A program made the position numbers and the translations under genes. The notes under the pieces were generated by a model. It was given only the letters and a program-made list of their open reading frames with translations. It had not been told where the DNA came from and did no database searches. Positions 28,668 through 51,514 of a stretch of DNA of 64,000 nucleotides are shown here, piece after piece; positions within the stretch are counted from its first letter, which is position 1; every line of letters begins with the position of its first letter. The DNA is taken from assembly GCA_916610825.1 (NCBI GenBank), contig OU744451.1:2046001-2110000 (forward strand), in the 5' to 3' direction. Source of the stretch: Haliclystus octoradiatus (lineage: Eukaryota > Cnidaria > Staurozoa > Stauromedusae > Haliclystidae).

Positions 28668-30312
28668 CAGGGGCGGATCCAGCTGAAAATCTGACTGGTG
28701 CTGAAAGGGGACAATAAAGGGGCGAAGCCCCGTCGTCTAGGGGGGTCCGGGGGCATGCCCCCCCGGAAAAATTTTGGTATTCGAAAGCTATTGAAGGGCT
28801 GTGACACCACTTTCGTAACTCCATCAGCAATATTTCAACGTAATTATAAAGCTTAGATGATCAAATCTTACACCATCAAATAAATAAACACAATAAAAAC
28901 ACAGAAAGAATTAAAAATGTATTTTATTGAAAATAAAAACACCTTGTGCTTAATTAGATGCATGCACTCAGACAGGCTATACTATACAGTATACATTATG
29001 AATAAAACGTTTCAAATGTGAAATAATTAGCAACTACTTAAATTCAAATAAACTATTTAGACTATTTAGACATAATCAGTAGTAATAATTCTAAAAGAAA
29101 AAGTTATATGAATCTTCTGATGTTTAAAATTGTAATTATTACATCCAGTTGTAAAAGGTTTTGAATGCATGTACAAAAATGAATTATAGGGGCAATCCAT
29201 CAACATCTTTTCGTTCTACAAAAAAGGAATGGAAAACAGATGTTTTTTCCCTGTCACTAGACATCAGCAAGACAGCAAGCCTACCCTGGGCTGGGAACTA
29301 AATGGCCAGAATAATACAATAATTTATTAGGCCTGTAGAAGTAGGCCTATTTATCAGGCCTTAAAGGCCTTTGTTGGAAACGAGAAGAGGATCCACAACC
29401 AAAATATGCATGCAAAATATGTAAATACAGATATCAAACATACGGTACTCGGCTACAATAAAATATTGAAACCAGTGAATTTAAAGCCAAAATAAAAACT
29501 ACTAACTTATCTACTAACCTCTTGTGATAATGCATGCAATAGCACTTCCAATTTTTGATAGGAAAATGAGTTCTTCTTGCAATTCTGCGAATTTTATTTA
29601 CATTTCTCAAACTTCTTGTTTCCTTGTGCTGATTTTTTACATTGAAAGGTTGATAATAAGTCTTGAATCAGCTAGCTCTTGTCGAATGGAACTTTCTTCT
29701 TTAAATTACATGTTAAATTGTCAATATAGAGCAGATTCTGTAATAGCGCAGCAAGATAATGTTAAGCTTTCTTAGACGCCATGCTTGCAAAAGTGGAAGG
29801 CATAACAACTTGACTTGATTAGACTTGATAAGTTAACAGGAAGTTGAGAACAACACAGTCGGACTTTGTATTTGTACTTGATTACTTGACATCATTCTAA
29901 TTATAGCACTAAAAAAAGCAATGAAGGTGCTCACTGGTGCTCACTGGTGCTCAAATTCCTGAGATTCCTAATTTAGAGAATATGATTGGTTGAAACGATT
30001 GGGCGAAAGCGAGAATGGAATGTTGATTGTTCTGACTGGTGCTCAAAGACGACATACGATTGGCTTTTAGATTTCCAGGGGTGCTCAGCCCTTGTTGCTG
30101 ATTGGAAGATTGCTTTGAATCATTGATTCAATGAAATCGTTCACTGAGAGAGTTCGGGACTGCTATCAGCAGCAAAATATGGCAAACGCAAAAATAACTG
30201 AAATCCTTCCGTTTCTATGGCAATATCAAATTACGCCATTGCGGCAACATCACAGCTTTGAAAATCTGACTGGTGCTCAAGCACCTTTTGCCCCCCCTTG
30301 GATCCGCGCCTG
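28668..30312. mobile_element. nested non-autonomous hAT element, 1645 bp
   Basis: It starts CAGGGGCGGATCCAGC and ends in the imperfect inverse TTGGATCCGCGCCTG, with a perfect 8-bp duplication gcaacagc on each side. The word GAAAATCTGACTGGTGCT occurs near both ends in the same orientation (about 28684 and 30258), and ctgactggtgctca-like copies recur at about 29935-29955 and 30032, a pattern typical of hAT subterminal binding sites. A GC-rich hairpin lies at 28747-28766. It encodes no transposase; its small open frames (29524-29775, 30131-30331) are not recognisable genes. It is inserted in the end of the transposase gene of the larger hAT and must be younger. Confidence 0.93.
28747..28766. repeat. 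GC-rich hairpin of the nested hAT
   Basis: ccgggggcatgcccccccgg folds into a strong stem centred on gcatgc. It follows a ggggcgaagccccg stem. GC-rich hairpins of this kind are common near the ends of animal hAT-type elements. Confidence 0.75.
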
Positions 30313-31895
30313 GCAACAGCAACTGATGTGAAAAAATTACTTTCAGTAACGATAAAATGCCATTTCTTTCCCTTAAAGTACAGATTGAGAGCTTTTGTGA
30401 TCAGCGACCGTGAAAGAAGTGGGTGGGGTCCATTGCGTCTAACAAAGCAGATGTCTTCTACTGTTTCATGATTCAAAGGTCTTTTGGCATCATCAATTGC
30501 AACGATTTCGGAGAACATAGATTCTACAACACATTCATTGAACGATCTTGTCAGGAATTTCATGGCAAAGTTATTAATTCTCAGACATTTCACGTAGGTT
30601 TCTTTCTCACAAAGTAAAATATACCATAATTTCTCCGTTGTGATTGTTTTTTTTGTTGTCTTTTCTTTTGCTTTTATATCGGCTTTTATAATCTGATGTG
30701 CTCTGTGCCGTAATGTAACGAACTGTGATCGTAAGACCATTTTTTCATCGTTGAGTAAAGGCGTTGGACCACTGGGAATACTCATTAATTTATTAAGTGC
30801 CTTGAGCTGAGTATCTAGGGGGGTTAATACATTGCTATCCTTGCCAATGGTCTTCGTAAAAGTAAACGCTGTCTGACTCAACACAAGCCACTCTTGCCAC
30901 GGATGAAATCTATGCTCGAGTCGTACAAGAAGTGCATCCACATAAACAGATAAGCGTTTAAAATTAGAACAAATAAACGAAGGAGGTTGACATGTCTCGG
31001 TATTGCTACTGTTTGGCAAAGAGAAGGCCAAACTTTGTTGTTGGTCAGTCTCAGTAGACACTTCTCTGACAGATTGCCGAGTAGCTCTATAATGAGTTTG
31101 ATTACCTTGTAATAATAAAGGTATGCCTTGCCATTCAACTTCTTGTGATATTCTATCAATTGCAGATTTGAAAGAAGCAGTAAATATTCCTGGTGCATTA
31201 TCATTTTTCAAATCAGTATTAACAGATTGAAGATCTTTCATTAAATTTTCGCAAGCGTTTTTAGAGTAAAACGGAAATACCTTATCGTTCTGTAAATACT
31301 TGGATGCTTTTGTAATTATTTCGCCCATCTCTAGCATGAATAATAAATTGATTACAAAGGTCACACCATTCAGTTTGTCTAATATTTGTTGTGCTTCAAG
31401 TGCTGACTTGGGGTCCTGAAGTTCAGCTTGATAATGAGCAACTATAGCTGGAAACATTGATACAAAGTTTGCATAAGTTTTACACATGTGCTCAGCGAAC
31501 CTAGTCTCAGAAAATAACGGTAGCTCCATAAATTTGATTTGCCTCCTGTTGGCACAGGTTTCAAGACTTTCCCTAGACAGGGGCTGTCTCAAGTCAATCA
31601 TTATCTGCTGCAGTAGACTGTCAAAAGTTCTTAGCCATTTCGCATTTGAGGTCCCAATAAAACCTTTATCTTTCACTTTGACGTCCGACAGCGCAAGTTC
31701 CAGTTTGTGAGCAAGGTCCCAGAGACATGCGTCATTGACAAAGCCGCCATCTAACTTCAGCTTCTCTGTAAATGCTTTATGTATTGCCAGGTTTTTTATC
31801 AATGCTCCGTCCCCAGTAAAGCCCTGGAAGCGATTCCGTAGCTGCTGTCCGCTCTCTGTGCACACCAGTTTCTCGACCGTATCCAAAATAATTGC
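30231..31895 (-). pseudogene. hAT transposase, C-terminal part (RNase H-like core and dimerisation region)
   Basis: Continues the same frame as the N-terminal part directly after a TAG codon at 31896-31898; the open stretch gives about 555 residues. Numbered from the TTG at 31886, a hAT-like core shows at CLWDLAHKLELALSD (residues 54-68, with the conserved D-x2-H) and at FSETRFAEH (125-133), the counterpart of the usual TRW motif. Near the end, RSFNECVVESMFSEIVAIDD (447-466), followed by FVRRNGP, matches the hAT C-terminal dimerisation region. Residues from about 526 to the stop come from the nested hAT, so the native tail is lost and replaced by about 26 foreign residues. It is one of the less classical animal hAT branches, close in style to transposase-derived proteins such as ZNF862 or C17orf113; I cannot fix the subfamily. 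Confidence 0.85.
30313..30320. repeat. target-site duplication of the nested hAT, right copy (gcaacagc)
   Basis: Exact repeat of 28660-28667, directly after the CGCGCCTG end of the nested element. On the minus strand it codes for the Ala-Val-Ala of the transposase before the reading frame enters the nested element. Confidence 0.95.
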
Positions 31896-33107
31896 CTAAA
31901 CATTGTCCCGCATCCCGCTAGGCTGTTTTGGATGGCCGACATATATGGTTTTGAATAGGCAATCTTCGCGGATTACAGGAATACGAACAGCAATCCCTTG
32001 AAAACTATCCCGTTTTATTTTGGCCTTGTCAGATATAACCACAATATGCGGAGCATCTCCTGTGCATTTCAATGGCTCTGCAAGCAGTTTGATCATTCTC
32101 TTTTCGACTACTTCTCTCAAACACGGCAATAACCTTCGAGCGAACTGGTCACTATGGTTGGTATTGCCAACATCCACTCCTGCGGCAGATAACACCGCCA
32201 CCATCCTAGGATATGTTAGAAAAGATTTTCCTTCGTATATAAGTTGGTAGGCAAGAGAACCAAGCAGGTGACCAACAGAAGAATTTCGATTTTTTCTTTT
32301 CTCTAAAAGCTGCTGCTCTATTGTATAACTACTTAAGTTATTTAAATGTTTGTCACAAGTTAAATGTTTAATTAAATTCGTCTTCAAATTGATAAATCTG
32401 CGGTTTTGTATACCTTGATCTGTTAACGAGGACACCGGATTATCAAAAAGTCCGAATTTAATTTGATTAGCTGCCTTTGACTCATTTGTTACAGATGTAC
32501 ATATAACACAACTAATTAATGGCTCTCCATTTTCTCCTTCAGCCTCTTCAAAGCACTCAACTAATTGAATTAACTCGGGTATATCTTTAGATACACGAAG
32601 ACGCATAATTGTCAAATTATTATCTGATTCCGCCAAAGTCAATACTTCTGGTATCACAGGCACTTCCTTCTCACGCACATTAATGTCAACTAGAGATGAT
32701 GCTCCAATCAAGGTTGACACTTTCTGTTGAATGTCTTTCACAATTGATAGTACACCAGGTTCACTAAGTTCAATACCATCTACCATTGAGTCCGAATCCA
32801 ATAGTTCCTGTTCATTTACTTCATTTAGAGACATATCCAAATTCATTGAACCTGTAATATCATCATTGCTATCATCTTTTCTCGCTGCCTTCTCCCTTAA
32901 TTTGTTATCTACTGCAGTCGAACCAGACGTCCTTTTACCTTGAACAAATGACGTTAAAGTGCTTTGTGTAGCATCGGAATCACCATAGCGAAAATTTTTA
33001 TTTGGATGCTTTGAAGCAAAGTGAGCTTGTACACTGCTTTTGCGTAAACTTTTATTGCAAATTCTACAATTCACTCGATCATGCGAAGGGGGCAGTCGCG
33101 AGGCCAT
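31896..33107 (-). pseudogene. hAT transposase, N-terminal part (zinc fingers and start of the catalytic core)
   Basis: 403 codons from an ATG at 33105-33107 to a TAG at 31896-31898. Residues 14-34 form a zinc finger C-x2-C-x11-H-x4-H of the BED/C2H2 kind, the usual DNA-binding start of hAT transposases. A second probable finger uses C200-x2-C203 and H248-x5-H254. An acidic, Ser-rich linker (about 70-115) separates them. PHIVVISDKAKIKRDSFQG (353-371) carries an aspartate at 360 in the place of the first catalytic residue of the RNase H-like fold. The frame goes on unbroken after the TAG, so this is one gene with a single nonsense codon, probably a CAG to TAG change. No intron is visible. Read-through or a very recent loss are the two explanations. 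Confidence 0.85.
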
Positions 33108-34082
33108 GTGATATACTGTGTAGTATCTTATAAATGAACAATATTAAATAATAAATAATAGCAACAACCAAAGATGATATAGAGATCTACTGGAAGTTTA
33201 ATAAAAATCGATGTAAAATTTAGATCAACTAGAAACTATATATATAAACTATAAACCAATATCGGAAGAAATTAGAAACACGGCTTGACCATACCCATTA
33301 CCATAGAATCTAAATTGCGTGTCTTCAAAAGTTTTTCGAGGTCCAAGGTTCAACTATAACCATGCGATTAACATTCACAAATACACATTAAAAAACGGAT
33401 ATTTATGCAATATGTTATGACCATGCGAGCTGCCTATTAACATGCTATTAATAATGTATAAATAGATAACACAAAGGAGCAGTCGGTCATTGACCGTAGA
33501 ATATAGATATAATGAGAATAGAGAATTGAGCAATTATTCCAATCAAAAACAAAACTATAATCTGTAATTGAATAATAAACATTGCATTACATTATAAAAT
33601 TAATTTTCTATTCCTTCTTTCCAATCTTCAAGCTATTCCAGGAAATGAACATCTAGATCAGATCAGTCACACAACATAAGTTCAATGAATATAGAAATAA
33701 AAATTAACAGCTTATTGTCAGTCATTTCGCGGTTATGCGAAAGAAAACAGATGTCTCAGAGACAAAGGACAGGAAACAGAAAAGACAACAGACCTTACGA
33801 AAGTTACATAACTTTTGGTTTGATTTCCGAAGTTTTGAAGGTTGATTTCCGAAGCGAAAACAAATTTTCAAATAAGCTTATAAACTCTCAAAGTTGATTA
33901 TAATTTTACTTTGGAAATTATCTTTGTCACTTTTGATTTTAGTACTTTTCAATAAATTTAGTTTAAAATTTAAAAAAAAATTAGAAATCTGAATTCAATT
34001 TAAATTTTTTTTAATTTGAAATTTGAAATTTTCTTCGGAATTTTCCTAGCCTTCCGCAAACCTAGTTTCCAGGTTTCCGGAC
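33108..34082. other. 5' non-coding part of the hAT element
   Basis: AT-rich leader and subterminal region between the transposase start and the right end. It contains a second ccttccgcaaacct word and several ttcggaa/ttccgga words near 34030-34080 that echo the left end. No gene is visible; the 70-codon frame at 33685-33897 (+) has no supporting features. Confidence 0.6.
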
Positions 34083-34096: not shown

Positions 34097-34104
34097 GTAA
34101 TACC
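34097..34104. repeat. target-site duplication, right copy (gtaatacc)
   Basis: Exact repeat of 27800-27807. The monomer resumes with attgattaatattg directly after it. Confidence 0.95.
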
Positions 34105-37100
34105 ATTGATTAATATTGTGATAGATTTATAAGCCATACATTATTAAAAATGATTAAAAATAAGTATGACTACTAATGTAATACCATTGATTAATATTGT
34201 GATAGATTTATATGCCATACAGTAATAAAAGTGATTAAAAATACGTATGATTACTAATGTAATACCATTGATTAATATTGTGATAGATTTATAATTCATA
34301 CAGTAATAAAAATGATTAAAAATACGTATGACTACTAATGTAATACCATTGATTAATATTGTGATAGATTTATAATTCATACAGTATTAAGAGTGATTAA
34401 AAATACGTATGACTACTAATGTAATACCATTGATTAATATTGTGATAGATTTATAATTCATACAGTATTAAGAGTGATTAAAAATACGTATGACTACTAA
34501 TGTAATACCATTGATTAATATTGTGATAGATTTATAAGCCATACAGTAATAAAAATGATTAAAAATACGTATGACTACTAATGTAATACCATTGATTAAT
34601 ATTGTGATAGATTTATAAGTCATACAGTATTAAGAGTGATTAAAAATACGTATGACTACTAATGTAATACCATTGATTAATATTGTGATAGATATATAAG
34701 TCATACATTATTAAAAATGATTAAAAATACGTATGACTACTAATGTAATACCATTGATTAATATTGTGATAGATTTATAAGTCATACAGTATTAAGAGTG
34801 ATTAAAAATACGTATGACTACTAATGTAATACCATTGATTAATATTGTGATAGATTTATAAGCCATACAGTAATAAAAATGATTAAAAATACGTATGACT
34901 ACTAATGTAATACCATTGATTAATATTGTGATAGATTTATAAGCCATACAGTAATAAAAAATTATTAAAATACGTATGACTAGTAATGTAATACCATTGA
35001 TTAATATTGTGATAGATTTATAAGTCATACAGTAATAAAAGTGATTAAAAATACGTATGACTACTAATGTAATACCATTGATTAATATTGTGATAGATTT
35101 ATAAGCCATACAGTAATAAAAGTGATTAAAAATACGTATGATTACTAATGTAATACCATTGATTAATATTGTGATAGATTTATAAGCCACACATTAATAA
35201 GTAATGATTAAAAATACGTATGACTACTAATGTAATACCATTGATTAATATTGTGATAGATTTATAAGCCATACAGTAATAAAAGTGATTAAAAATACGT
35301 ATGACTACTAATGTAATACCATTGATTAATATTGTGATAGATTTATAAGCCACACATTAATAAGTAATGATTAAAAATACGTATGACTACTAATGTAATA
35401 CCATTGATTAATATTGTGATAGATTTATAAGCCACACATTAATAAGTAATGATTAAAAATACGTATGACTACTAATGTAATACCATTGATTAATATTGTG
35501 ATAGATTTATAAGCCATACATTATTAAAAATGATTAAAAATAAGTATGACTACTAATGTAATACCATTGATTAATATTGTGATAGATTTATAAGCCATAC
35601 ATTATTAAAAATGATTAAAAATAAGTATGACTACTAATGTAATACCATTGATTAATATTGTGATAGATTTATAAGCCATACAGTAATAAAAGTGATTAAA
35701 AATACGTATGACTACTAATGTAATACCATTGATTAATATTGTGATAGATTTATAAGCCATACAGTAATAAAAATGATTAAAAATACGTATGACTACTAAT
35801 GTAATACCATTGATTAATATTGTGATAGATTTATAAGCCATACAGTAATAAAAGTGATTAAAAATACGTATGATTACTAATGTAATACCATTGATTAATA
35901 TTGTGATAGATTTATAAGCCACACATTAATAAGTAATGATTAAAAATACGTATGACTACTAATGTAATACCATTGATTAATATTGTGATAGATTTATAAG
36001 CCATACAGTAATAAAAGTGATTAAAAATACGTATGACTACTAATGTAATACCATTGATTAATATTGTGATAGATTTATAAGCCACACATTAATAAGTAAT
36101 GATTAAAAATACGTATGACTACTAATGTAATACCATTGATTAATATTGTGATAGATTTATAAGTCATACAGTAATAAAAATGATTAAAAATACGTATGAC
36201 TACTAATGTAATACCATTGATTAATATTGTGATAGATTTATAAGCCACACATTAATAAGTAATGATTAAAAATACGTATGACTACTAATGTAATACCATT
36301 GATTAATATTGTGATAGATTTATAAGCCATACAGTAATAAAAATGATTAAAAATACGTATGACTACTAATGTAATACCATTGATTAATATTGTGATAGAT
36401 TTATAAGCCATACAGTAATAAAAGTGATTAAAAATACGTATGATTACTAATGTAATACCATTGATTAATATTGTGATAGATTTATATGCCATACAGTAAT
36501 AAAAGTGATTAAAAATACGTATGATTACTAATGTAATACCATTGATTAATATTGTGATAGATTTATAAGCCATACAGTAAAAAAAATGATTAAAAATACG
36601 TATGACTACTAATGTAATACCATTGATTAATATTGTGATAGATTTATAAGCCATACAGTAATAAAAATGATTAAAAATACGTATGACTACTAATGTAATA
36701 CCATTGATTAATATTGTGATAGATTTATGAGTCATACAGTAATAAAAATGATTAAAAATACGTATGACTACTAATGTAATACCATTGATTAATATTGTGA
36801 TAGATTTATAAGCCATACAGTAATAAAAGTGATTAAAAATACGTATGATTACTAATGTAATACCATTGATTAATATTGTGATAGATTTATATGCCATACA
36901 GTAATAAAAGTGATTAAAAATACGTATGATTACTAATGTAATACCATTGATTAATATTGTGATAGATTTATAAGCCATACATTATTAAAAATGATTAAAA
37001 ATAAGTATGACTACTAATGTAATACCATTGATTAATATTGTGATAGATTTATATGCCATACAGTAATAAAAGTGATTAAAAATACGTATGACTACTAATG

Positions 37101-38490
37101 TAATACCATTGATTAATATTGTGATAGATTTATAAGTCATACAGTAATAAAAATGATTAAAAATACGTATGACTACTAATGTAATACCATTGATTAATAT
37201 TGTGATAGATTTATAAGCCATACAGTAATAAAAATGATTAAAAATACGTATGACTACTAATGTAATACCATTGATTAATATTGTGATAGATTTATAAGTC
37301 ATACAGTAATAAAAATGATTAAAAATACGTATGATTACTAATGTAATAACATTGATTAATATTGTGATAGATTTATAAGCCATACAGTAATAAAAATGAT
37401 TAAAAATACGTATGACTACTAATGTAATACCATTGATTAATATTGTGATAGATTTATAAGTCATACAGTAATAAAAGTGATTAAAAATACGTATGACTAC
37501 TAATGTAATACCATTGATTAATATTGTGATAGATTTATAAGTCATACAGTATTAAGAGTGATTAAAAATACGTATGACTACTAATGTAATACCATTGATT
37601 AATATTGTGATAGATTTATAAGCCATACATTATTAAAAATGATTAAAAATAAGTATGACTACCAATGTAATACCATTGATTAATATTGTGATAGATTTAT
37701 ATGCCATACAGTAATAAAAGTGATTAAAAATACGTATGATTACTAATGTAATACCATTGATTAATATTGTGATAGATTTATAAGCCATACATTATTAAAA
37801 ATGATTAAAAATACGTATGACTACTAATGTAATACCATTGATTAATATTGAGATAGATTTATAAGCCATACATTATTAAAAATGATTAAAAATACGTATG
37901 ACTACTAATGTAATACCATTGATTAATATTGAGATAGATTTATAAGCCATACATTATTAAAAATGATTAAAAATACGTATGACTACTAATGTAATACCAT
38001 TGATTAATATTGTGATAGATTTATAAGCCATACAGTAATAAAAAATTATTAAAATACGTAGGATTAAAAATGTAATACCATTGATTAATATTGTGATAGA
38101 TTTATAAGCCATACAGTAATAAAAGTGATTAAAAATACGTATGATTACTAATGTAATACTATTGATTAATATTGTGATAGATTTATAAGCCATACAGTAA
38201 TAAAAATTAATTAAAAAAACGTATGACTACTAATGTAATACCATTGATTAATATTGTGATAGATTTATGAGCCATACAGTAATAAAAAATTATTAAAATA
38301 CGTAGGATTAAAAATGTAATACCATTGATTAATATTGTGATAGATTTATAAGCCATACAGTAATAAAAGTGATTAAAAATACGTATGATTACTAATGTAA
38401 TACTATTGATTAATATTGTGATAGATTTATAAGCCATACAGTAATAAAAATGATTAAAAATACGTATGATTACTATTGTAATAGCATTGT
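34105..38490. repeat. 81-bp satellite array, right part and right edge
   Basis: About 54 more monomers of the same satellite. The tataattcatac variant seen just left of the hAT (27751) also occurs just right of it (34291, 34371, 34451), so the array was continuous before insertion. A variant with cacacattaataagtaatg is seen only on this side (35188-36262). The last monomers decay: a form with aaaattaattaaaaaaacg at about 38200, then tactattgtaatagcattg at 38471-38489, after which the sequence becomes unique. This is the true right edge of the array, and it touches the stop codon of the deaminase gene. Confidence 0.95.
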
Positions 38491-41400
38491 AATATATATT
38501 ATGTTCAAATCACTTTCAATTGTTGTTAGCTTTTCTTTAGTATTTTTTTCTAACTGGAATCTATTTCTGATCTGATTAACGAGATTCGCTACACCATCGA
38601 TGATAATTGATGGGTGACATAAGGCAGGACCAGTGTAGGTTGTGGAATGGTTGAAAATGTATGAGAAACGGTCACGAAGGTAGCTGGAAATCTTGCTAAT
38701 AAATAACTCAAGAATTATTTCTAGATATGGTCTATGCATTGAACTTTTTATATCATTGCGGCATACATCCCTTACTTTCAAATCCATTCCAGGACCTAGA
38801 ACTGTCGGTTGCAGTATAAATAGATCAATTAAAAAATGCATAAAGGGACTATAAAAACATTCCCAAATGAAAAACGTGTAAGCTGGTTTATCTTCATTCC
38901 ACAATAATGTAAAGTAAATAATAACTAAAACTATGTTCTCATCTGCTTCATGCAATTCTCTACATCCCAGAACCATTTTGATAGTTTTGCATATTGCCTC
39001 TTCTTCAGATAATGATACAGATACCTCAAATCCTGCTTTAAATTTAATAAGGTATTCTCGAATTGTATACAATGGTTCTTTTTTCAAATACAATGCAGCA
39101 ATATTTAAAGCTTGTTGAGAATTTTTTAGGAGTTTAATTAATTCTTCTGCAGCTTTTTTTTCATCACCATCAGATACGTCTTCTCTAGCTGAATCTTCAT
39201 AAAATCCCATAAGCATATCTTGTTCACTGTCAACTTCATTGTCGGAAGCATACTCATCATTCCCATGCCTGAAATGTTGCAGCTTGATTTTCTCAAAATA
39301 ACCAATATTTAGTTTACCGAGTGATGCAATCACTTCAAATGCATTTTCTTTTTGCGATTTGAGTTCCTCATACTGCTTGAATAGATCTTCACCAAACCAT
39401 TGTCGGAGAAATTTATTGAAATCATTTTCTATATTTCCTTCAATCGATGATAGAAGTTTTTTTCCAACTACCTTACTAAATTGCCCTTGATCAATGCTAC
39501 AATCGTCTACTGAGATTCCAAACCGTTTAAACAAGAAAGTGCAACAGATACATTTGTATTTTGATGTTGCTACAGACTGAAGTGATTTACCATTATCATC
39601 TTTTTCAAGCCAGCACTGTAATAGCAGTTTCGCTTCATCATGCATTTCATTTTCAACACCCTTGAAAGTCCCAGGCATATCTTCGACACGTTTAACATTT
39701 TGAAACCATTGACACAAATCATGATTACTTTTGAATAGCAATTTTAATTTTTCAAACACATAATTATCCTTGCTATCCGTTTTGTTCTCTAGATTTCTCA
39801 CTGACTCACGAAACAATTCAATCACTTCAAATGCGTTTTGTTTCTGATGTTTATTAACTTTTTTTGAGAACTTTTCAAACAGTTTCTTGCCAAACCATTG
39901 TCGGAGAAATTCATTGAACTTCGTTTCCGTGGTTTCTATAAACAGGTGTTGAATTTGTTTTCTGACTTCTGTAATAAATGGCCATGGATAAATGTTACAG
40001 TGCTTTCCTGGGATTCTTATTCCAAACTGTTGAAATAAGAAAGCACATTGAACACAGCAATACTTTGATGTTGCTACAAATTTCAGTGATTTACCATCCC
40101 TTTTAAGCCAGCAATGTAATAGTATTCGCGCTTCAGCATGGATTCCATCTTCAATCCCATCAACGATCTCAAACTTTTCTTTATCTTCCTTTTCATTTGT
40201 AAACCACGAAACAAAATAATGATTCTTTTGAAACAAAGATTCTAACTTCTCAAGATCTTTAAAGTATGTCACCGACTTCTCCCAAAACCCTTTTTTGTCG
40301 TTATTACCAGTGTCGTTTCTTATATAAAATGGAGTGTCTTTGAGTAATTCCTGATTATCTTTAATTTTGTCTAGCCAATCCTCAATGCTGAAACCTTGAC
40401 TTTTTGACTTCTTGTATTCGTAAAAATTATCTGTCAGTTTTCGAATAAACAGATCAATATAAGGGAGAGGATCCCATACTGACTTGACAAAATCTTCTAA
40501 ATCTTGCCACTGCTGGAGAATTATTTTTTCATTTTTTAGCGGCCAAAGATTATCTAAGAACAAATAATCTTTTTTTGTTAAATGATGTATTTCTTCCTCC
40601 CGACTACCGTGGACAATAAACATCAGCAGTTCGTTATCATTTTTAGCCCGATATAAGTAGATCCCTTGAGTTTTTTGTTCACAGCTGTTTTTATCACTTG
40701 CCAATTCATCAGGCATCAACATGATTTGATATTGCTCGAGGCTCTCTGAATATTGTTCTAAGTACTGATCGTTTATTTTTGCTTTATCTTTTTCTTTTGA
40801 ATCAACAAATTCTCTGCTATACCACATAAACAATAATTCCCATGTCAAAGAATTCATATATACATAGAACCGGGCTTGATCAGAATCCTTGTCTTTCCCT
40901 ATTATCTTCATTTCTAAATATCCAAGCAGATTTTGAATTGACACACCCAAACGATTGGTAGCAATGCTGCTGGATCCAAAATGAACTTTTTTAATGATTG
41001 TAACGTGATTACAACTTTCAAGTTTTTTCTGCAAATCGACAGTTCTGCCTTTTAGAAATTCTTCTTTATCAATTTTTATACGATACACGAAAGAGCCCAG
41101 AAATGGATGAGTACAAAACTGTATGATATACTCAAATTTATCACACGGCGTGTAATTATCCTGGTCCAGAATTTCATGAAACGCAAACTTGTTATTGTTT
41201 GTTGACTTGAAATAGTAAATAGTCTTAGTAAATGTTTGTTTTTTAATCTCTCTTCCGTCGGGAAAACATAATTTTGCATACAAGGTGTGGGTAAATGTTA
41301 ACATTCTCTCTCTGGAATCAGGTGAATCCCTGTTATAATTAATACCCACCAGAACCCATTTGTAATCATAATTTACAATTTCTTTTGAGTGATTCCAATT

Positions 41401-41628
41401 TGATGCAATTAGGAGCTTGTTGTCGTAAAAAGCAACAGCTGAACAAATCTCATTCCCATAAACTAATCTTGACACCATTTCCAATATTTTATTCATTTGA
41501 CTTCTATCGTGCGATTTTCGACCTTTATTTGCATCCTGTAATTTTTTATAAAATTCATTAAAAAAAACCTTTAGGGTATTGTTATTGTCCCTTTCAAAGG
41601 CATCTACTATCTGTTTCGCAGTCCACAT
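38473..41628 (-). CDS. tandem double deaminase-domain protein (OTT_1508-like), 1051 residues
   Basis: One uninterrupted exon from an ATG at 41626-41628, with an in-frame TGA 24 bases upstream, to a TAG at 38473-38475. Two repeats of about 166 residues each carry the zinc-deaminase signature: H497-A-E499 with C525-x2-C528, and H663-D-E665 with C693-x2-C696. Both have the context CWL...GKSL..VATSKY before the cysteines and FLRQWFG after them. Known for the superfamily: His and two Cys bind zinc and Glu shuttles the proton in hydrolytic deamination of a base. The SKY-x-C-x2-C form is closest to the OTT_1508-like deaminases, from memory. ICSAVAFYDNKLLIASNW (61-78) may be the first beta-hairpin of the fold, displaced by a long insert. 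An acidic linker (785-825) leads to a helical C-terminus without recognised function. No signal peptide or clear membrane segment. The substrate is unknown; base or nucleic-acid deamination is inference. Confidence 0.82.
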   Translation of the reverse strand: MWTAKQIVDAFERDNNNTLKVFFNEFYKKLQDANKGRKSHDRSQMNKILEMVSRLVYGNEICSAVAFYDNKLLIASNWNHSKEIVNYDYKWVLVGINYNRDSPDSRERMLTFTHTLYAKLCFPDGREIKKQTFTKTIYYFKSTNNNKFAFHEILDQDNYTPCDKFEYIIQFCTHPFLGSFVYRIKIDKEEFLKGRTVDLQKKLESCNHVTIIKKVHFGSSSIATNRLGVSIQNLLGYLEMKIIGKDKDSDQARFYVYMNSLTWELLFMWYSREFVDSKEKDKAKINDQYLEQYSESLEQYQIMLMPDELASDKNSCEQKTQGIYLYRAKNDNELLMFIVHGSREEEIHHLTKKDYLFLDNLWPLKNEKIILQQWQDLEDFVKSVWDPLPYIDLFIRKLTDNFYEYKKSKSQGFSIEDWLDKIKDNQELLKDTPFYIRNDTGNNDKKGFWEKSVTYFKDLEKLESLFQKNHYFVSWFTNEKEDKEKFEIVDGIEDGIHAEARILLHCWLKRDGKSLKFVATSKYCCVQCAFLFQQFGIRIPGKHCNIYPWPFITEVRKQIQHLFIETTETKFNEFLRQWFGKKLFEKFSKKVNKHQKQNAFEVIELFRESVRNLENKTDSKDNYVFEKLKLLFKSNHDLCQWFQNVKRVEDMPGTFKGVENEMHDEAKLLLQCWLEKDDNGKSLQSVATSKYKCICCTFLFKRFGISVDDCSIDQGQFSKVVGKKLLSSIEGNIENDFNKFLRQWFGEDLFKQYEELKSQKENAFEVIASLGKLNIGYFEKIKLQHFRHGNDEYASDNEVDSEQDMLMGFYEDSAREDVSDGDEKKAAEELIKLLKNSQQALNIAALYLKKEPLYTIREYLIKFKAGFEVSVSLSEEEAICKTIKMVLGCRELHEADENIVLVIIYFTLLWNEDKPAYTFFIWECFYSPFMHFLIDLFILQPTVLGPGMDLKVRDVCRNDIKSSMHRPYLEIILELFISKISSYLRDRFSYIFNHSTTYTGPALCHPSIIIDGVANLVNQIRNRFQLEKNTKEKLTTIESDLNIIYITMLLQ
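39322..39765 (-). other. deaminase domain 2 of the tandem protein (residues 622-769)
   Basis: Zinc ligands and catalytic residue: H663, E665, C693, C696. Asp replaces the Ala between His and Glu (HDE instead of HAE), and C695 adds an extra cysteine inside the C-x2-C. All four key residues are kept, so this copy may also be active. It aligns with domain 1 from FEKLKLLFKSNHDLCQWF to ENAFEVIASL without large gaps. Confidence 0.75.
39820..40263 (-). other. deaminase domain 1 of the tandem protein (residues 456-603)
   Basis: Zinc ligands and catalytic residue: H497, E499, C525, C528. Twenty-six residues separate E499 from C525, a usual spacing for this fold. The domain starts with a helix containing LEKLESLF and a NHYFVSWF motif and ends with FNEFLRQWFGKKLFEKF and QNAFEVIELF, all of which have counterparts in domain 2. 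Confidence 0.75.
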
Positions 41629-43164
41629 GCTATTTGGATCTTTCCCAAAGGATCAGCCAGGGTGCGTATGATAAATAGTCAGGTTAATAAATACTCGTTG
41701 TTCTTTTGAAGGTTGTTGAAAGGAATTGAAACTGAAAGAAAACAATATAATAGAAAACTTTATAGCAACCAAAAGCTGGTTTTCCACGTCACAACTGTTG
41801 ACCAGGAATTGTGGAAAAGGAGCAAGCCAATCAGATAGCTAGCTACTTTGAGATGATTCCAAAGTAGACTGGAATGTCCAGATTTGTGTCCCAAAGTTAA
41901 AATAGAACATTTGAATGTTTTCAAAATTATAAAATGTCTTCATTTGATAATAGAGAACTTTACAGTATATCTTATAGTGATCTGCGTCTGCATGAGCCCG
42001 ACGTGAGCCAGATTATTGGATCTTATGGCGTTTGGTTAAAGAGGCATATATGCTCTTATAGACATATTCAGAGTTTGAAACTAGTCCTGAACATTCTACA
42101 AATATTCATGGTATAAAAATAATTGTAATAACGTGACCAATAGATGAAATTTACTTTTTAAATCAACTATTCTCCCTAGCTATTCCAAGAAATATTAGTA
42201 ATCTTTTTCAATGAAGTATTTCTTTGAACTATCAAATGTTTAATTGTTTTTTTTATGACTTATTTTCAGATAAATTTATTGCACCTGTAATGTCTAAAAC
42301 TGTCGTAAATTAAAAGCAAACCTGTCTGATTTTCAAATACGGTTCTGCAGCATTTTGATTTCTCTTCCAAAACCTTGCCGATAACGATAATTGAGGAGAT
42401 TTTGAAAAGTATCGCCTCTGCAGAAAAAGTTTATGAACTGTTCTTGTTTTTGGACTGCCCGTGAAAAGTTCACTGAATTCTAAGAGAAGAATTTTGAGAG
42501 AAGAACATGAAGCAGGCCTGTCAGTAGCAAATTTGGAATGGCGAGGCTGTGCAGGATGAAGAATAGGGGCCGTTAAGACCTTCATCTAGGGTGAAACATT
42601 GAAATATTTCAACAAATTTGAAATATTGCATCCAAATATGTTCTATCCTGCGTTCTGCAGTCCAGAGGAAAATATATTTTTGGAATAACTTTTTATTAGC
42701 TAGCAATATATGCCAAGGATTATTCGGGTTACAGATCTATGACATTGTGAATGTGTGTAAATTTGAAGTAAAAAAATTGCATCTATACAATTCTTTGTAG
42801 ACTTTTGTTAACACACAAAGGTAGGAATGCTTAGAATAAACAGAACTATCAAATTAAGTAATAACATTTTAACTTTTGTAATATATATTCAAATTTACAA
42901 TTTGAGGAGGGCTGAGGAATGAATTTTCTTGTGGAGACTTGCATGCCTAATTACTCATTATTGGCACATAGTAACTGGGTAATAATTGGATAAATAAAAA
43001 GTGTAATAATTTACTGCACAAAAGAATTTCTATTAATTTATCAGCAGTACAGAAAAATTCAGGATTACAATAAAAAAATGATCGTAAAAGTTCATAAAAA
43101 CTCGAATGATGTTGAAAAACTAAAATTAATGTTATTAGTTTCAAACAGGCATTCAAGGAAATAA
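41629..43164. other. upstream region of the deaminase gene, no clear gene
   Basis: Contains the presumed promoter of the deaminase gene, without a clear TATA box. An open frame at 41934-42116 (+, 60 codons) points away from it and could be a divergent exon, but it has no recognisable motif. Two overlapping minus-strand frames at 42310-42585 and 42521-42706 (the second with FLWTAERRIEHIWMQYFKF) might be a decayed repeat. I would not call a gene here. Confidence 0.4.
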
Positions 43165-43330
43165 AAGGGCCATTTACACTGCAGCAGAACAGGAACGGTA
43201 CTCGTCAATTAACACCCGAGGTGTTAACAAGAATGCGGCTTGTGCTGTTTTTTTTCAGGGTTTACACAGCTTATTAAAACTGTTTTCAAGATTGCCCGTG
43301 CCTATTTTTAAGCGGGCCGAGATTGAAAAC
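43165..43330 (+). repeat. dispersed repeat, copy 1
   Basis: Contains actgcagcag, then ggtactcgtcaattaacac, a ggtgttaa word, and agcgggccgaga near its end. The same words occur in the same order on the opposite strand at about 62490-62690. The start gggccatttacactgcag resembles the end of a DNA transposon, but no duplication or opposite end could be fixed. Confidence 0.5.
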
Positions 43331-44018
43331 TTACAAACTGAATTATAGGTTTCTCATTATTTAATGGTTTTATTGGTGAAATTCGATAAATTGAGATTCA
43401 ATTATGCAAATCATGAATCTGGATCGTGATCGCAATTCACAGATACGCCAGATTAATCTAGATTATATTACATGGAACCTTGATAATGTTAACTAAATAT
43501 TTTAATTTAAATATTCTATAGATAACTTCAAAAAATAGGTATAGGCATAAAATATTTGAAACATCATGTATATATGCGTGTCCCAAATTGATTCGTTCAC
43601 TCATGGATATAATATGGTTGTCTTATATCATACGCGAAATCAGTTCTTCCTTTCTTGGATTCCTTTCCTATCATTAATTATATGCAACATATATTATATG
43701 GAATATTTTGCATGGTATCATTACTATTTTTGGTACTTTTAGTACTGGATATATTCTATACGAAAAGTATTTCTATTTCTATTTCTATGTCAATTCTTGT
43801 TTTTCTGTTTAATTCCCGAAAACTTTCAACCCTTATTGGACAACTACTGGTGTAAGCCCCAGAATAGGAATTCTTGTGGGTGTCTGCTCTGTTTCATCCT
43901 AAATAATTTTTACTCCATAACTAATAAAAGATATAGCGTCCTATGATGTGTGTTGTGTCATCGGAAAAACTTTAAGATTTGGCTAGCTGTTGAGGTCCTG
44001 ATTTGAATTGACCATATG
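43331..44018. other. no gene seen
   Basis: AT-rich unique sequence. The 66-codon frame at 43655-43855 (+) is rich in hydrophobic residues but has no other support. Confidence 0.5.
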
Positions 44019-44782
44019 CAGGGCAGTCGCCAGTGGGGGTGTGGGAGTGATATCTTGTCAGGCATACTCACTGTAGGCCTACTTGTCAGCCGTTTCATTG
44101 ATCGGAAAGGCTCTTAGTGATGATAAACTTAATGAGATTTCATTAAACATTTACCGACAAAAGCTTGATGGGGATCGACCCCTTGAATGATAACCGAATT
44201 CCTTGAATGTTTAAGGGATTCTCGCTCCACTCCGCTCTACAAAGACAGACAGGCATCTTGGACATCAACGCTGGAAGACTGATGAAACAAACGTAATGTC
44301 TTATGATTGCTTGTAGACAACCTTAACGCGTATTTTGACATTGTTAGAGGTTTACTTTGCCAGAGTGTGACGTGCTCTGAAAGAGATGACACAGGCGCAA
44401 GTGCCCCCTTGCCAGACGTGGCCATTGATTTAAAACGAATTATCATAATGGGGTACCTCATAATGCCAGGCGTTTGCTGTGGTCCTGGAATGGCAAATAA
44501 TGCTATAGCCATGCATGAAAATCTCAACATATTTCATTGCCTTCCTTGCATTTGAATTATCATAAACTCAGTCAATGATACCAAAATGACAATCCCAAAA
44601 CGTTTTCAGTTTATCGTTACTTGTAGCCAATATGTCTCTTTTTCGCTTCTAGGCTAGGCCTACACGTTTTTTGAAGGCACTTCAAAATCCATAAAATGCA
44701 ATAAAAATTGTGTGATTTTTCCTGATTTTGTCGGAAAATTCTCCTTTTACACCCCCTCCAAAAATTTCGAGCGACGGCACTG
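44019..44782. mobile_element. non-autonomous hAT element (MITE), 764 bp
   Basis: Ends CAGGGCAGTCGCCAG and, inverted, CAGTGCCGTCGCTCG; both are followed within about 30 bases by gggggtgt. The 8 bases outside are accatatg on the left and accatgtg on the right, an 8-bp duplication with one later change. Several short open frames inside (44237-44805) overlap each other on both strands and do not resemble a transposase. It is a third hAT family in this window, distinct in its ends from the two in the satellite. Confidence 0.8.
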
Positions 44783-47562
44783 ACCATGTGTGCTGCAACC
44801 CGCATCTGCTCAGAGTGTTAATACGAATGTCATCAGTACGGGTTGACCACAGAAAAGCGTTTCCTTAAAATATTTACGGACGTTTAATTAATAGAATAAA
44901 GTAGAATTTTTACATTTTTACACATTCATGCAATTTATATTAATTATTTATTAATTAATTATATTAAACATTTATGTAAAAAGTATCACACTTTTATGCA
45001 GCATGATATTCATTTTTTCGAAATTAATCAAGCAATCGTGAATACGATATAACGATAAAATGCATTAAGCTACATACGGATTTGATATTTTGCGAAATTT
45101 TACAAAATATTTTGCTTAAAAAAGTGGAAGCAATATAAGCAAGATAATTCCTGTATGCTATTTGTCAGCCAAACGTACAGAAATGAAAATTTAACCTGAT
45201 GTAAAGAAAATGTTTCCTTCTAAAAACTATATCTTGTTCGTTCTTCGCTTGAAATTTGAAATCAAAGATCCCTATAAAATGATCTCAAGTATCAGATAGA
45301 GGGAATTGGACTATTTTAAGGCAAATTGTGGATAAACTATAGGAACACAAATTCATTTATATGAAAAAGTAGCATTAAAAAAGAAAAATCTCAATTAAAT
45401 GAGATGCTAGAAATCTGTCCCGTGACAACTAACAGTCAGACCGTTTACGCTGAAGCCCGAAGCCGCATTTGACGGCTCTCGTCGTCCTTAAAGTTTGACA
45501 CACTTCCGTTAAATCATTGTTGAAATGAGTTGAATTGGTTTCGTCCCGTCAGAGTGGGAACTGAAAAAGAGAGAGTTTACGAGACCCGCTTCTCTGAACT
45601 TTTGGCCTTGGGGAGACAGGATCCCAAAAATGGTGTAATATTCTGTTGTCATCTACGTTTAAGAAAAAGATAAAATTTTGATAAAATTCAAAATTGTGCG
45701 AAATTTGTAATTTTTTCGAGGGTCTCCATTGGCAACTTGAAAATCAGTCAGGCGTGACATTCTGCCGACCAGGAGCCTGTTCCTCTCACTATGGGCGCAG
45801 TCTATTCCAATCATCGGCCAACAGTTTCCAACAATAGTGGGCTTGTCTAGATGCCTACAGACCTAACTTTCAGCCTAAGTTTTCTTTTAATAACTTTCCA
45901 GCAAAAAACTGTAAAAATCGTTCCAGCTGAGAACAAACACCAGACATTATTACAATGATATGCCATTTGATACAAATATTGAAAAAAATAGTATTGGGTA
46001 TTTAACTTTGCCATAAATTTTGGAGGGTAAAATGTCAGAAATGGAGACACAAAAAATCTGATACAAAGCTATCATAATATTGATCAATTTAATATTCAAA
46101 AGAGCATTCAATTACAAATGTACAACTTAATTCAATTTCAAACGAAGATTTTCAAATGTAAATTTATTTCAATTACATGCTCCAATGTTTGAGGTACCTA
46201 ACAAATTGAGAAAAAAATGCCTGAGAGGCACCATGCCATAAATGATGGGTTTAAATTAACTAGAAACATCTCCAAGAATAGGACAATCAAATTGAAATAG
46301 TGAAGTCAGAGGTGCATTGGAGCTTGCGATTGACTACCAAGGAAACTAATCTTTTTACTGGATTTGTCATTACTGATGCTGCTTGTCATTACTTGTCCTG
46401 TAGAAAAATGAGAGTATCAGACATGAGAATTATGTTGATTATTTGTAATTGATTTCAATGGGAAAAGGCAGTTTCTCTAGTCTGAAATCAGTTAGAGGTT
46501 AATAAAATTCCTTTCTGGTGTATAAATTTTAGTATCGATTAGGGACGAATAGTAAAGTAAATACGCAGTTGAAGGAAAGAGAGGGGACATGAAAGGGATA
46601 CAAGGGTAAGGAGGTGTCAACTACGTGCATACTCATTTAAAGTGTCCTCATTACTATTATGTTTTAAAAAATGTTGAGTATCTCAACAAAATACCAATAA
46701 TAGAAAAAGCTAATTATTTAAATAGATGTGGTGGACATTTATCTATGATGCTTGTATAAGATTTACAAGCTCTAGGGAAAAATAAATGGAGGTGGGGCGT
46801 CACAGTAATTTTATGAAAGTTCAAAAGTGTAATCTTAGTACAATGGAGGGCGAAACCTCCAGCTACTTTGTGGATGGCCCCTTTGCAAATATCAACTGAA
46901 GTATACTAAACACTTGCCTTAAATAACTATCCATTTCATTTTACATTTCCTGTAGTTACATGTTTTTGGTCATTTTGCGCGACAAAATGCCAAAAAAGGT
47001 GTGGGCATTTATTTGTTTGGGAGCTTCAGTACTATAATACCTTTAGAATTACACAATTTTGTAATACTCTTCTCGACATTGCCGGAAATTTGACTCAAAT
47101 TTTCATGTGGGGGAGGGGTTACACCTCTCCAGGATTTACAGCTGTGACCACAGTCAAACCTCTCATCTTGTCACTTCTAGATAGCGGTCACCTGTCAATT
47201 GTGGTCACTCTTGCGATACTCAGAATAGTACTTTCTATTGAATTGTAAATAAACACTACCTGCATATAGCAGCAATCAATGTCACATATCTCCTAGCGTA
47301 TTGATATAAACATACAGATTGCACTTTTTTCAAACAGTCAAAGAGGTCTTGGAACAGAACAACATACACACATATTTTGAAATGGAAATAATGCCAACTC
47401 TATTTTGTCACCTTAAATGAGGTAATGAACTTAACAGTCTATAACACACTTCATGAAAGTTACCTAGGGGCGCCGTTATATACAGTTTCTACTGCATAAG
47501 AAACTTAGTTGTTAAAAAACTTAAAGTGTCTATATCGCCTCTGGGACATAACGGATTGGGAC
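44783..47562. other. no gene seen
   Basis: Mostly AT-rich unique sequence. A less AT-rich patch at about 45415-45610 (gtcccgtgac ... cccgcttctctg) has no open frame of note. A pair of short words, gtggtcac and gtgaccac, at about 47140-47215 gives a weak inverted repeat and may belong to an old element. Confidence 0.45.
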
Positions 47563-48355
47563 TAGGGGTGTACTGGAGCGACCACTCGTGATCCCACAAG
47601 AACATCGAATCAGATAAGACAATTTTCAAAATGTTGGGTCGGATCAGCAAAAAATTTGTTAAAACATTTTTTTTTTATAGTTGGCAGAATTAATTGCCAA
47701 TTGATGTTTTAAATCATCTTATCTTCCGTGTAATGATTATGGTTGCTTATATTCTAGTTAGTCTTCCAAAACAGATTAAGAAGGTAAAAAATTGTAAAAA
47801 GAACATACATGTTCATATATATAGCAATAAACAGGATATTTAATTTATCCACGCCTCAATATTAACTGGCCCCATCCACATTTATATTTAAATCACATAA
47901 ATCTGAATATTAATATTGTTTATGAACTGTTTTTAAAGCCATGTTTTAAGCAAACGACACGTAACTTTACAAAACAAACTGTAGGAAAATTATTTGTGCA
48001 CATGTTTAAAGATTTTCTAAAAGCGAGGCTAGCTTGAAAATGGCTGCGATTGAAGGAGAATATCTGATTTCCGTAGTTCTTACATTGTAAAGGCAACAGA
48101 AGTCAGAATCAAATATTATTCAGATATAACTTGATAAAAGTCTTTTCTTACAAAGTGGAAGTGTTGTTGTGATAGAAGTCTTCAAAGTTGGTATAAAAAA
48201 ATTGCAAATGCAAACCTTTTTCAAATCAAACATTTATTTTAAAAAATTATCCGGTAAAACCTGCCGTTTCAACCACTGCTCTGGCCAGACCACCGGACCA
48301 ACCAAAACAGAGAATATAAGGCAGGATATCCGATCGGTTATCTGGTACACCCCTA
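47563..48355. mobile_element. probable non-autonomous hAT-type element, 793 bp
   Basis: Left end TAGGGGTGTACTGGA and inverted right end TAGGGGTGTACCAGA are alike, in the style of TAGGG-type hAT ends. The outer 8-mers, attgggac and actttgac, agree at only 5 of 8 positions, so the duplication is old or the ends are slightly misplaced. Inside, near 48040, the word aaaatggctgc resembles a YY1 site. No transposase is present. Confidence 0.5.
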
Positions 48356-50792
48356 ACTTTGACAGAATATTTTTGCTATCCGTACATGTCACTGTTGCCT
48401 TTTTGTGTAGCGTGACTCTTCCCTGTCGAAATTGACCTTGGACATGGTATTTTGGGGATTCTCGCGATAGTATTAAATAGAAAATGACTTTAAATATATC
48501 CCAGACTCACTGATTATACCGAACCTATGAAATACAACCTTATCATTTCCACGTTTTGGTCATATATAATTGATTAATTTATTTAAGGAAACCTATAAGA
48601 TTCTTATCCAGGGACTAGCAGCCTACTAGCCGCCCCATCAAGGTTGTTAAGAGTCATAGGATAGTAATTGAATAGAAAACGAAGTAAAGAGAAATTGTGT
48701 CCAAAATCAATGGAGTTAAACTATTTGGAAAATTATTATTCATGAAAAAAAAATATTTTTACAGATTCCGTCAGGCGGTGGATCCACAGATCCAACTTTT
48801 CGAAACCAAAAAAGGAACAATATTATTTTCTAAAAGAGAGGTTTTCTATTTTTTCAAAGTTTCTGTAATTGTTTTAATAGAAAAACCTGAACTGCACGTT
48901 CAGAGAAAATTGCTCTTTATCATTTATCGAGTTTTATTCTTATATGCTGGTATTTTCAAATTCAAATGAGTTTCAACTATTAAGAGGTTTAGCAAATTCA
49001 GATATTACAATTATACTTTTTAATTGCTACACGCAAAAAAATGTTGGAACCGTTTTAGCTTTTTTCATTAAAATTTTTAACAACAACAACAACCGGACAC
49101 CAAATGTAGTATAACGTAATAGAGTCAAGACATGACCAATTATAACCGTGGTCAATTGGATTTGATCTCTTCTTACAAAACCGTATACAAACGTTAACGT
49201 AATTACCTATAAGAGGTCTAAGTTCTAATATGCGCTAAAACTATCACAGATGTTAAACGACACTATTGTTGCCATGGCAACATTTGAGCAGGATAAAATT
49301 TTCTCCTCAACTACATTTTTTGCAAAAACTCAAAAATAATCTGCGTTTTCTAAGTTTTTCATCATCACTTTAAGTTACCTTTGAGTATATTTTTACATTA
49401 ATGACGTAAATTAAAAATTGATGGGTATGCATGGTTATCGATGTAAAAATGGAGTGATTTGGAAAGTCCATGGACCCAAAATTAATTTGGGCATTCCCCA
49501 TCGTTTTTTTGAAAAAATAAAGTTATGCATGTTTAATTCTCAAACTTTGTTCAATGGACAAAATTCGAGCCACCAATAGGCTAAAATCGAACATGTGATT
49601 CAATGGTATATGTGGACAACAACGATGCTGTTGTCTACTGCTGTTGCCTAACACCATAAGATATTGAACATTGTCTAATACGATTAGATAACGATTGAAC
49701 TAGCGTTAGACAAAAATGATCAAAGAAAATGACCAATTTGACTTGATAATTTAACAGCCATGCAGAAGAAGCACATTATGTTGACTCAAAATTGTTGGCA
49801 GACTACAAGGTACATAAGAAGCTTAGAAAGCTGCATTTTCAAGGTAAAATCATTTTGATTTTGGAAATATCCATAATTATTCATAATTGCAGTGTGTTGT
49901 TTTGAAGAAATGTTTTGAATGCTGTTTTAATTTACAATTAAACTTATGAATTTGAAAATCATTTCTAATCTTATTGGATTCTGAATTATGGTTGGAATAG
50001 GAAATGATTAAACTGTCTTGATTGTAAATATAATATTTATATTTATTTTGAGAACAATATTACATTTAATTCAATTTGAAGTTAGCTCGTGTTTGAAACA
50101 TGTCGCGATTTAAACATGTAATCAAAGTTCACTCAGTTTTCATATTAAAAGAGAATTATAATCTACACAGTAAATTGAAAAAAACTAATACAGATGGAAC
50201 TTGACGAATAGGGTAGAAAATTTGGAAAGTTAAGGTGTAAACCTCAATACCAATTTTTTCTTTGATTTGGACGCGTATCTAAAGTGTATATCCCGGATAT
50301 TGAGAGTTTGCTTCTTTGAAAAGAGAACATTTTCTATTTGGAAATGTTGTTCTTTTGTTTCTGCTTTACGCGACCATGACAATTTTGTGTTTCACTCTTT
50401 TTCCACTAACAGGGAGATGTTTATTTTTCATAAGAGGGTTTAGACTGGAAAAAACACTTGCTGTTTTGTGTTTTTGTCTCTAATTAAAAAATCGTTGATC
50501 CAAACGACAATCTGCTTTCATAATGATCAATGTTCAGTTCAATATGCAGCTATCTTTTTATCAATATTTGAGGTCAAACAAAAGAGATATAAGTCTATAA
50601 AGTGGCAAAAAAGCAAAATTGAATTTTTTTGAGCGGCTGTATCTCTACCGCTTAGCCTAGATAGGATTAGCAATTACAATTCACAGCAGCATTCTGAAAA
50701 ATACATATTTTCAAAATCGGCGATAACTTAATAATCCTCAATTGATAGGTGTCAAATTTCAACAAACACACTTTCTTTATATTAAAATTCTT
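48356..50792. other. no gene seen
   Basis: AT-rich sequence. The 90-codon frame at 48697-48969 (+) is Lys/Phe-rich, as expected by chance in such sequence, and lacks recognisable motifs. A short caacaacaacaac tract lies at about 49081. Confidence 0.45.
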
Positions 50793-51514
50793 AAAGTGCA
50801 CATGACATCAACATTTTTTATTCTGTGTTCGAGTAGCCAATGCAAAATAAATAGGAATGACGACAATAATTATTCAATTTGGACTCTTATAAGCGGAGAT
50901 ATTTAATTTTGAAAGTACCATATTTAAGAAATAGTGCTCCTTCAAAAGTCGGAACTCATGACTGAATGACAAGAGAGCCCACTATGGAAAAATAAATAAG
51001 TGTAGACTTCAAAAAATCGTAACTTTTTTCTCGCGAAAAAGAAATTGCCTACTTCCCAGAACAGATATGCCCATATCTTCGGGACACCTTGTTGGTCAGA
51101 TATGACTGAAATTAAACTTGAAATGTAGAGTTTAGGAAGGTTTTATTATACTTCGATGGAGTTTTTTCTGCCAAAAAGGTGTTAAAACACTGGATTAACC
51201 CATGTTATGGATCAAGGTGTTGACTACTAAAACAGCGGCAAAACGCTTTGTATTCACCTCGCTGCAGATGATGCTGAAGATGTTTTTATCTATTCACGTT
51301 CAATTCCAGTCATATATGGCCAACAAGGTGTCCCGAAGATATGGGCATATCTGTTCCGGAAAGTGGACAATTTCTCTTTAGCGAGAAAAAAGTTACAACT
51401 TTTTGCAGTCTAGAATTCGTTATTTTTCCATAGTGGGCTCTCTTGTCATTCCGGCATGAGTTCCGACTTTCGAAGGATCACTATTTCTGAGATTTTTGGT
51501 GTCATGTGCACTTT
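50793..51514. repeat. long inverted repeat (fold-back element)
   Basis: The left arm, 50793 to about 51112, pairs with the right arm, about 51301-51514, around a spacer of about 190 bases. Matching words include aaagtgcacatgaca at the outer edge, gagagcccactatgg in the middle, and ccatatcttcgggacacc at the inner edge. The left arm has about 100 extra bases near 50815-50920. Transcripts would form a long hairpin. It could be a fold-back MITE; no clear target duplication was found. Confidence 0.85.

Follow-up and report, generated by a model that had tools for sequence, protein, structure and literature searches.

Introduction

It has been reported that OLD, the deaminase of the fungal OLD-ZAO system for antiviral adenosine-to-inosine editing, acts on adenosines in mRNAs during antiviral responses and favours those in hairpin loops (PMC12754623). 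The deaminase domain of OLD bears the name of the OTT_1508-like family, and deaminases of Rickettsiales endosymbionts have been proposed to be host-directed toxins (PMC3482391). Since a Leishmania mexicana gene product is also annotated as an OTT_1508-like deaminase (PMC12315365), the family extends beyond bacteria and fungi. Nucleic-acid editing in animals, on the other hand, is usually framed in terms of ADAR, ADAT and AID/APOBEC. Here we describe a 64,000-nucleotide stretch of DNA (hereafter the window) from the stalked jellyfish Haliclystus octoradiatus, corresponding to bases 2,046,001-2,110,000 of a 26.96-Mb contig in an assembly of 261,861,806 bases and 33 contigs. An open reading frame (ORF) at positions 38473-41628 of the window, on the minus strand, is predicted to encode a divergent animal representative of the OTT_1508-like deaminases, here named P0001.

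This gene is real, resides in the host genome and, as far as its sequence allows us to judge, is probably functional. It belongs to a known enzyme family whose presence in this host was unexpected, and its architecture is unlike that of the bacterial members examined. The original prediction, made from the letters of the window, had suggested that the gene may represent an undescribed system, which is too strong given that members of the family are already on record, by description or annotation, in Rickettsiales, fungi and Leishmania. The novelty appears to lie in the occurrence of the OTT_1508 family in an animal, together with the duplication of half of its domain; among the papers listed by full-text literature searches, no title or displayed abstract start reports the family in an animal.

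Results

A jellyfish gene of the OTT_1508-like deaminase family

The ORF runs over 1051 codons from an ATG at 41628 to the stop codon at 38473, and its frame stays open for eight further codons 5' of the ATG, giving 1059 open codons in all. The plus-strand reading over 38473-41628 is filled with stops. At a background stop frequency of 6.3% of trinucleotides, 1059 open codons have a log10 P of -29.8; in 200 sequences simulated at this length, open runs reached at most 204 codons. Therefore, the ORF is not due to chance. Its coordinates and its length of 1051 residues are those originally predicted, with the minus strand as the coding one, and the protein is indeed an animal one, the source belonging to the Cnidaria (Staurozoa). 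A domain search and a search with the full protein (six-frame, best candidates scored) detected a single place for the gene in the 261.9-Mb genome.

A pattern scan of P0001 located HxE motifs at residues 497 and 663, that is, 166 residues apart, and CxxC motifs at residues 525 and 693, with no further matches to either pattern. These motifs belong to two repeats, residues 451-612 (copy 1; 39793-40278, minus strand) and residues 613-780 (copy 2; 39289-39792, minus strand), which are 45% identical over 146 residues (BLASTP, 122 bits). The raw score of one repeat against the other was 309, whereas 1000 shuffles averaged 33.5 and did not exceed 64. Both copies end in a common C-terminal extension with FLRQWFG and NAFEVI. 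The repeats proposed in the original prediction, alignable along their whole length and with the HxE and CxxC positions kept in both, are thus confirmed.

When the whole P0001 was compared with Pfam, PF14441 (OTT_1508_deam) was the sole family above its cut-off, with 52 bits against a cut-off of 27 (E = 6.9e-14) and two matching stretches. With the isolated copies, copy 1 alone reached 39 bits, and copy 2 reached 24.3 bits, below the cut-off and covering only positions 2-43 of the 64 of the profile. PF00383 (cytidine/dCMP deaminase) scored 14.3 bits on the whole protein with a cut-off of 25, and neither an APOBEC family nor ADAR / A_deamin or a dsRNA-binding domain was among the five Pfam families listed for P0001 up to E = 10. 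Membership in APOBEC, ADAR or CDA is rejected on these results; the Pfam search that had been proposed as a check supports the OTT_1508 branch that had been predicted in their place. Up to the same E value there was no Pfam match in residues 1-450, nor in the C-terminal region, residues 781-1051 (38476-39288, minus strand).

In the protein collection no relative was found with residues 440-780 (E <= 1e-3), nor with the whole protein (the best 7994 candidates by common words being scored) and residues 420-800 (E <= 1); as far as the collection includes animal proteins, this holds for other animals as well. The same result was obtained for viral contigs, searched with the protein and with an alignment of the two repeats, for genome contigs, searched with the alignment, and for plasmids and phages, searched by tblastn. 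NCBIfam gave nothing meaningful for P0001 and PADLOC gave none, and a search of solved structures returned one chance-level match each for P0001 (E 1.2) and for the alignment of the Rickettsiales proteins described below (E 1.5).

One N-terminal half and a duplicated catalytic half

In the genome samples searched, the OTT_1508 family is enriched in Rickettsiales. PF14441 was present at E <= 0.001 in 30 of 262 Rickettsiales genomes (in 25 of them above the cut-off), at a total of 54 places. In a phylum-wide sample, which overlaps the Rickettsiales sample in at least two genomes (G001 and G003), the corresponding numbers were 3 and 0 of 398 genomes, and 14 control genomes gave 0. Seven of the 54 places, from five of the 30 genomes, were examined, and six of these seven relatives have a common layout in which an N-piece, a spacer, HAE, C-x2-C and G-x-H follow each other in one ORF. 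The N-piece opens with R-LD or similar and closes as a strand whose last residue is Asn (LLIAxN or similar). Nine residues of the catalytic half are invariant in the six relatives, namely the H, A and E of HAE, a Tyr and a Gly that precede the C motif, both C of that motif, and the G and H of G-x-H. As side observations on the bacterial family, one member (L051; genome G128, contig C52) is a 1255-codon ORF with the OTT_1508-like part after about 800 residues that by eye seem repeat-rich and ankyrin-like, and a 2.4-Mb Rickettsiales genome (G035) has eleven OTT_1508 places, a local family expansion.

A profile made from six N-pieces matches P0001 once, at residues 48-82, with 31.8 bits; 2000 shuffles yielded at most 9.2 bits, and 746 other ORFs from this region at most 8.5 bits. 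These residues, which include ICSAVAFYDNKLLIASN and, as the invariant final Asn, Asn77, are the best-matched core of the N-terminal half of an OTT_1508-type deaminase, residues 4-91 (41356-41619, minus strand). The same half was recognised in direct comparisons of P0001 with the 262 Rickettsiales genomes (E <= 0.01), which gave 14 places in 12 genomes, 13 of them matching the N-terminal region, between residues 4 and 142, and the last matching residues 484-573. Of the N-terminal matches, 12 precede a same-strand PF14441 place by 93-258 amino acids, nine in the same ORF and three out of frame; the remaining one, in genome G129, has no PF14441 place behind it. A profile-profile comparison matched residues 28-84 (E 7e-6) and 485-549 (E 1.9e-6) of P0001 in the order seen in the relatives, with copy 2 at E 0.16.

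Hence, a family-type N-half lies upstream and a G-x-H follows the CxxC in copy 1, and copy 2 is without both. By these comparisons, P0001 is best described as a single OTT_1508-type deaminase in which the spacer is longer and the catalytic half occurs twice. The original prediction of two tandem deaminase domains goes too far, and two complete domains are rejected, because the N-terminal part of the relatives is found once in P0001 and copy 2 has lost family-invariant positions. The spacer, residues 92-450 (40279-41355, minus strand), has no assigned family and is shorter in the Rickettsiales proteins, where the distance from the start of the N-motif to HAE is 140-219 residues compared to 449 in the jellyfish protein. 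Moreover, no two of the 54 Rickettsiales places lie in one ORF by their coordinates, in contrast to the two catalytic copies of the jellyfish, although one place in genome G199 gains score from in-frame neighbours.

The two copies differ in their agreement with the family. Copy 1, with H497-A-E499, SKYC followed by C525-VQ-C528, and G541-K-H543, keeps seven of the nine residues invariant in the relatives (H497, A, E499, C525, C528, G541 and H543), as read from the alignment. Copy 2, with H663-D-E665 and C693-IC-C696 and without G-x-H, keeps four of them (H663, E665, C693 and C696). When P0001 and the six relatives were aligned together, nine columns were invariant (two Asn, H-A-E, C, C, G and H). 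A catalytic profile built from seven Rickettsiales sequences gave 21.2 bits with copy 1 and 1.2 bits with copy 2, versus a best whole-sequence score of 8.3 bits in 2000 shuffles; therefore, copy 2 is recognisable via copy 1 and Pfam but not via this small profile.

Genomic setting

The window is located on chromosome 6 of the H. octoradiatus assembly jrHalOcto1.1 (PMC9975415). The deaminase gene resides in host DNA, flanked by a satellite and a dispersed repeat of the host. Its stop codon sits within an array of 54 copies of an 81-bp satellite (34097-38489), which overlaps the last codons of the ORF as well. About 1.5 kb upstream of the ORF, at 43165-43406, there is a dispersed repeat, of which the large contigs carry at least 40 further copies, each about 240 bp long (the best 40 of 523 candidates were scored). 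Most copies of this repeat are paired with a piece of about 50 bp in opposite orientation, usually about 0.6 kb off.

A larger array of the same kind of satellite occupies positions 1-27807 (27.8 kb). The satellite is A+T-rich, with about 343 copies in this array besides the 54 next to the gene and 95% matches, and it produces long spurious ORFs. Between both arrays, at 30231-33143 on the minus strand, lies a transposon-like ORF pair (551 and 403 amino acids), of which the 403-amino-acid ORF starts with a weak C2H2/BED-like stretch (zf-C2H2_12, E 0.22, below the cut-off); a coding sequence similar to the pair by eye was seen at the start of the small contig C27. At 54737-55588, on the minus strand, there is by eye a Penelope-like reverse transcriptase-like fragment, for which Pfam lists only a weak AT-hook. 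Rfam and tRNA scans of the 64-kb window gave nothing. The 100-kb flanks contain many transposon ORFs and spliced-looking exons that, by eye, we take to be GMC-oxidoreductase-like and quinone-oxidoreductase-like. Elsewhere in the assembly, among the 20 contig starts read, CCCTAA telomere repeats begin four of the five chromosome-scale contigs read (C2 being the exception), and three small contigs start with long pentamer or tetramer microsatellites. The last contig, of 18,316 bases, is mitochondrial in the 9.5 kb examined, with two tRNAs detected by ARAGORN in 8.9 kb and a gene order that, from the translations, is presumably cox1 opposite cox2-atp6-cox3-nad2-nad5.

Discussion

In deaminases such as TadA and APOBEC, an Asn ending the second strand touches the target nucleotide, and the helices carrying HxE and CxxC bind the zinc and place the Glu. 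Following this Asn rule, only the N-half together with copy 1 could form a full site, and copy 2 would be a zinc-binding partner. On balance, we lean towards a reading of the sequence in which P0001 is one active nucleic-acid deaminase, formed by the N-half and copy 1 and accompanied by a degenerate copy 2, and encoded by a gene acquired from a source of symbiont type or of fungal OLD type. Residues 48-82 would supply the helix-strand-strand half of the deaminase sheet and build a complete active site with copy 1, in which the zinc would be held by H497, C525 and C528, E499 would serve as the proton shuttle, and N77 and H543 would lie in the substrate pocket. The inactive halves of Tad3 and of double-domain APOBEC3 position RNA or regulate the active half, and copy 2, as a degenerate zinc-binding partner, might position RNA or regulate copy 1. 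The substrate would be a nucleic-acid base, adenosine in RNA being the likeliest by analogy with the fungal OLD enzymes; adenosine in RNA is favoured because fungal OLD, the branch with reported activity, edits adenosines in mRNA. Cytosine, DNA or free nucleosides may also be substrates of P0001.

Several observations weigh against this reading. Copy 1 departs from the relatives at two invariant positions (Tyr to Phe and Gly to Ala), and the invariant Asp of the R-LD in the N-half is a Glu in P0001. The two changes in copy 1 do not alter our estimate for a single active site, since they are conservative and the positions of the zinc ligands, the Glu and the G-x-H stand. Copy 2 still holds all four zinc and catalytic residues, arguing that it is not dead, and one of the seven relatives examined (L048) has a catalytic half with G-x-H and no N-piece recognisable by pattern. 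Structure prediction with AlphaFold2 gave no confident structure, the mean predicted local distance difference test (pLDDT) scores of 40.3 for the two-row repeat alignment and 34.4 for residues 1-780 alone being far below usable values. The six frames of 41629-51572 contain no Pfam domain at E <= 0.01, and thus no zinc-finger neighbour of the OLD-ZAO type; on the other side of the gene there are 4.4 kb of satellite and then the transposon-like ORF pair with its weak finger-like start, where the scan ended. As for the origin of the gene, the donor comparison was made with bacterial sequences, and codon usage does not decide between a host and a bacterial origin: the host/bacterium log ratio per codon was 0.007 for the ORF, near zero, and -0.029 for the transposon ORFs, and of 14 host exon pieces 13 were positive and one was negative.

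The residues kept in copy 2 (H663, E665, C693 and C696, within SKY-x-C-x2-C) would also be expected if both copies were catalytic, with copy 2 sharing the one N-half by turns or within a dimer, or relying on another fold. We consider two active sites unlikely, since copy 2 reaches only 1.2 bits with the profile of the relatives, reads HDE where HAE is invariant, has lost the G-x-H and has no N-half of its own. A different kind of alternative is that the gene is decaying or was freshly captured and has no present function, with a symbiont-derived insertion still open; its occurrence at one genomic place, a stop provided by the satellite and the lack of a homologue in the protein collection would be in agreement with this. 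However, the frame is open over 1059 codons and most of the family-invariant residues are kept, and two copies that are 45% identical with intact motifs and a common C-terminal extension suggest long constraint, so that we regard the absence of function as improbable. This argument from constraint is weakened by the fact that the duplication could predate the arrival of the gene in the jellyfish.

Instead of editing RNA, the enzyme could also deaminate free nucleosides or nucleotides, or serve as a toxin directed at invading cells. Copy 1 is weakly PF00383-like (17.4 bits, below the cut-off of 25) and bacterial relatives are proposed toxins (PMC3482391), but the branch with a reported activity, fungal OLD, edits mRNA (PMC12754623), and we think that such a role has little probability. 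Finally, the relatives found are bacterial and the ORF is uninterrupted, as would be found if the assembly were contaminated with bacterial DNA. Contamination is rejected here as very improbable: the gene lies within a 26.96-Mb contig, is directly joined to a satellite found again elsewhere in the window and stands near a repeat dispersed over the chromosomes, and the assembly is described as built from HiFi and Hi-C data and checked for contamination (PMC9975415).

Under the favoured reading of one active site with a degenerate copy 2, the gene would have been acquired, most likely from a Rickettsiales endosymbiont or else by a route common with fungal OLD, and it might have been kept for defence against viruses or mobile elements. 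The concentration of the family in Rickettsiales, the proposal that its members there are toxins and the uninterrupted ORF together suggest a symbiont as the donor; alternatively, the gene may have been passed on by, or together with, another eukaryote. The jellyfish gene would fit the idea that symbiont toxins feed the enzyme repertoire of eukaryotes (PMC3482391). Going further, we tentatively entertain, as a minority view, that the OTT_1508/OLD class has in P0001 its first animal member, a "one-and-a-half" deaminase derived from a host-directed toxin of an intracellular symbiont and domesticated in Staurozoa as an RNA editor outside ADAR and APOBEC; its doubled catalytic half would then be an internal module for RNA binding or inhibition, and its role would be defence against viruses or mobile elements. 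PolyA RNA-seq data made by the same genome project exist (ERR9434978), and so the gene is testable at once (PMC9975415).

The favoured pairing of an active unit with a degenerate one is also seen in Tad2/Tad3 and in double-domain APOBEC3. These belong to other families, however, and their second unit is either an entire domain or a subunit of its own, whereas in the jellyfish protein only the catalytic half is doubled, which would be an unusual route to a two-unit deaminase. The inactive Tad3 domain is described as well in the report on fungal OLD (PMC12754623). Among eukaryotic proteins of the same family, LmxM.32.1760 of Leishmania mexicana is likened to P0001 by its annotation alone (PMC12315365). 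Fungal OLD, likened by its published description, has the same named deaminase domain with an HxE...CxxC centre, and it differs from the jellyfish gene in adjoining the zinc-finger gene zao, of which the jellyfish gene has no counterpart within 10 kb upstream (PMC12754623).

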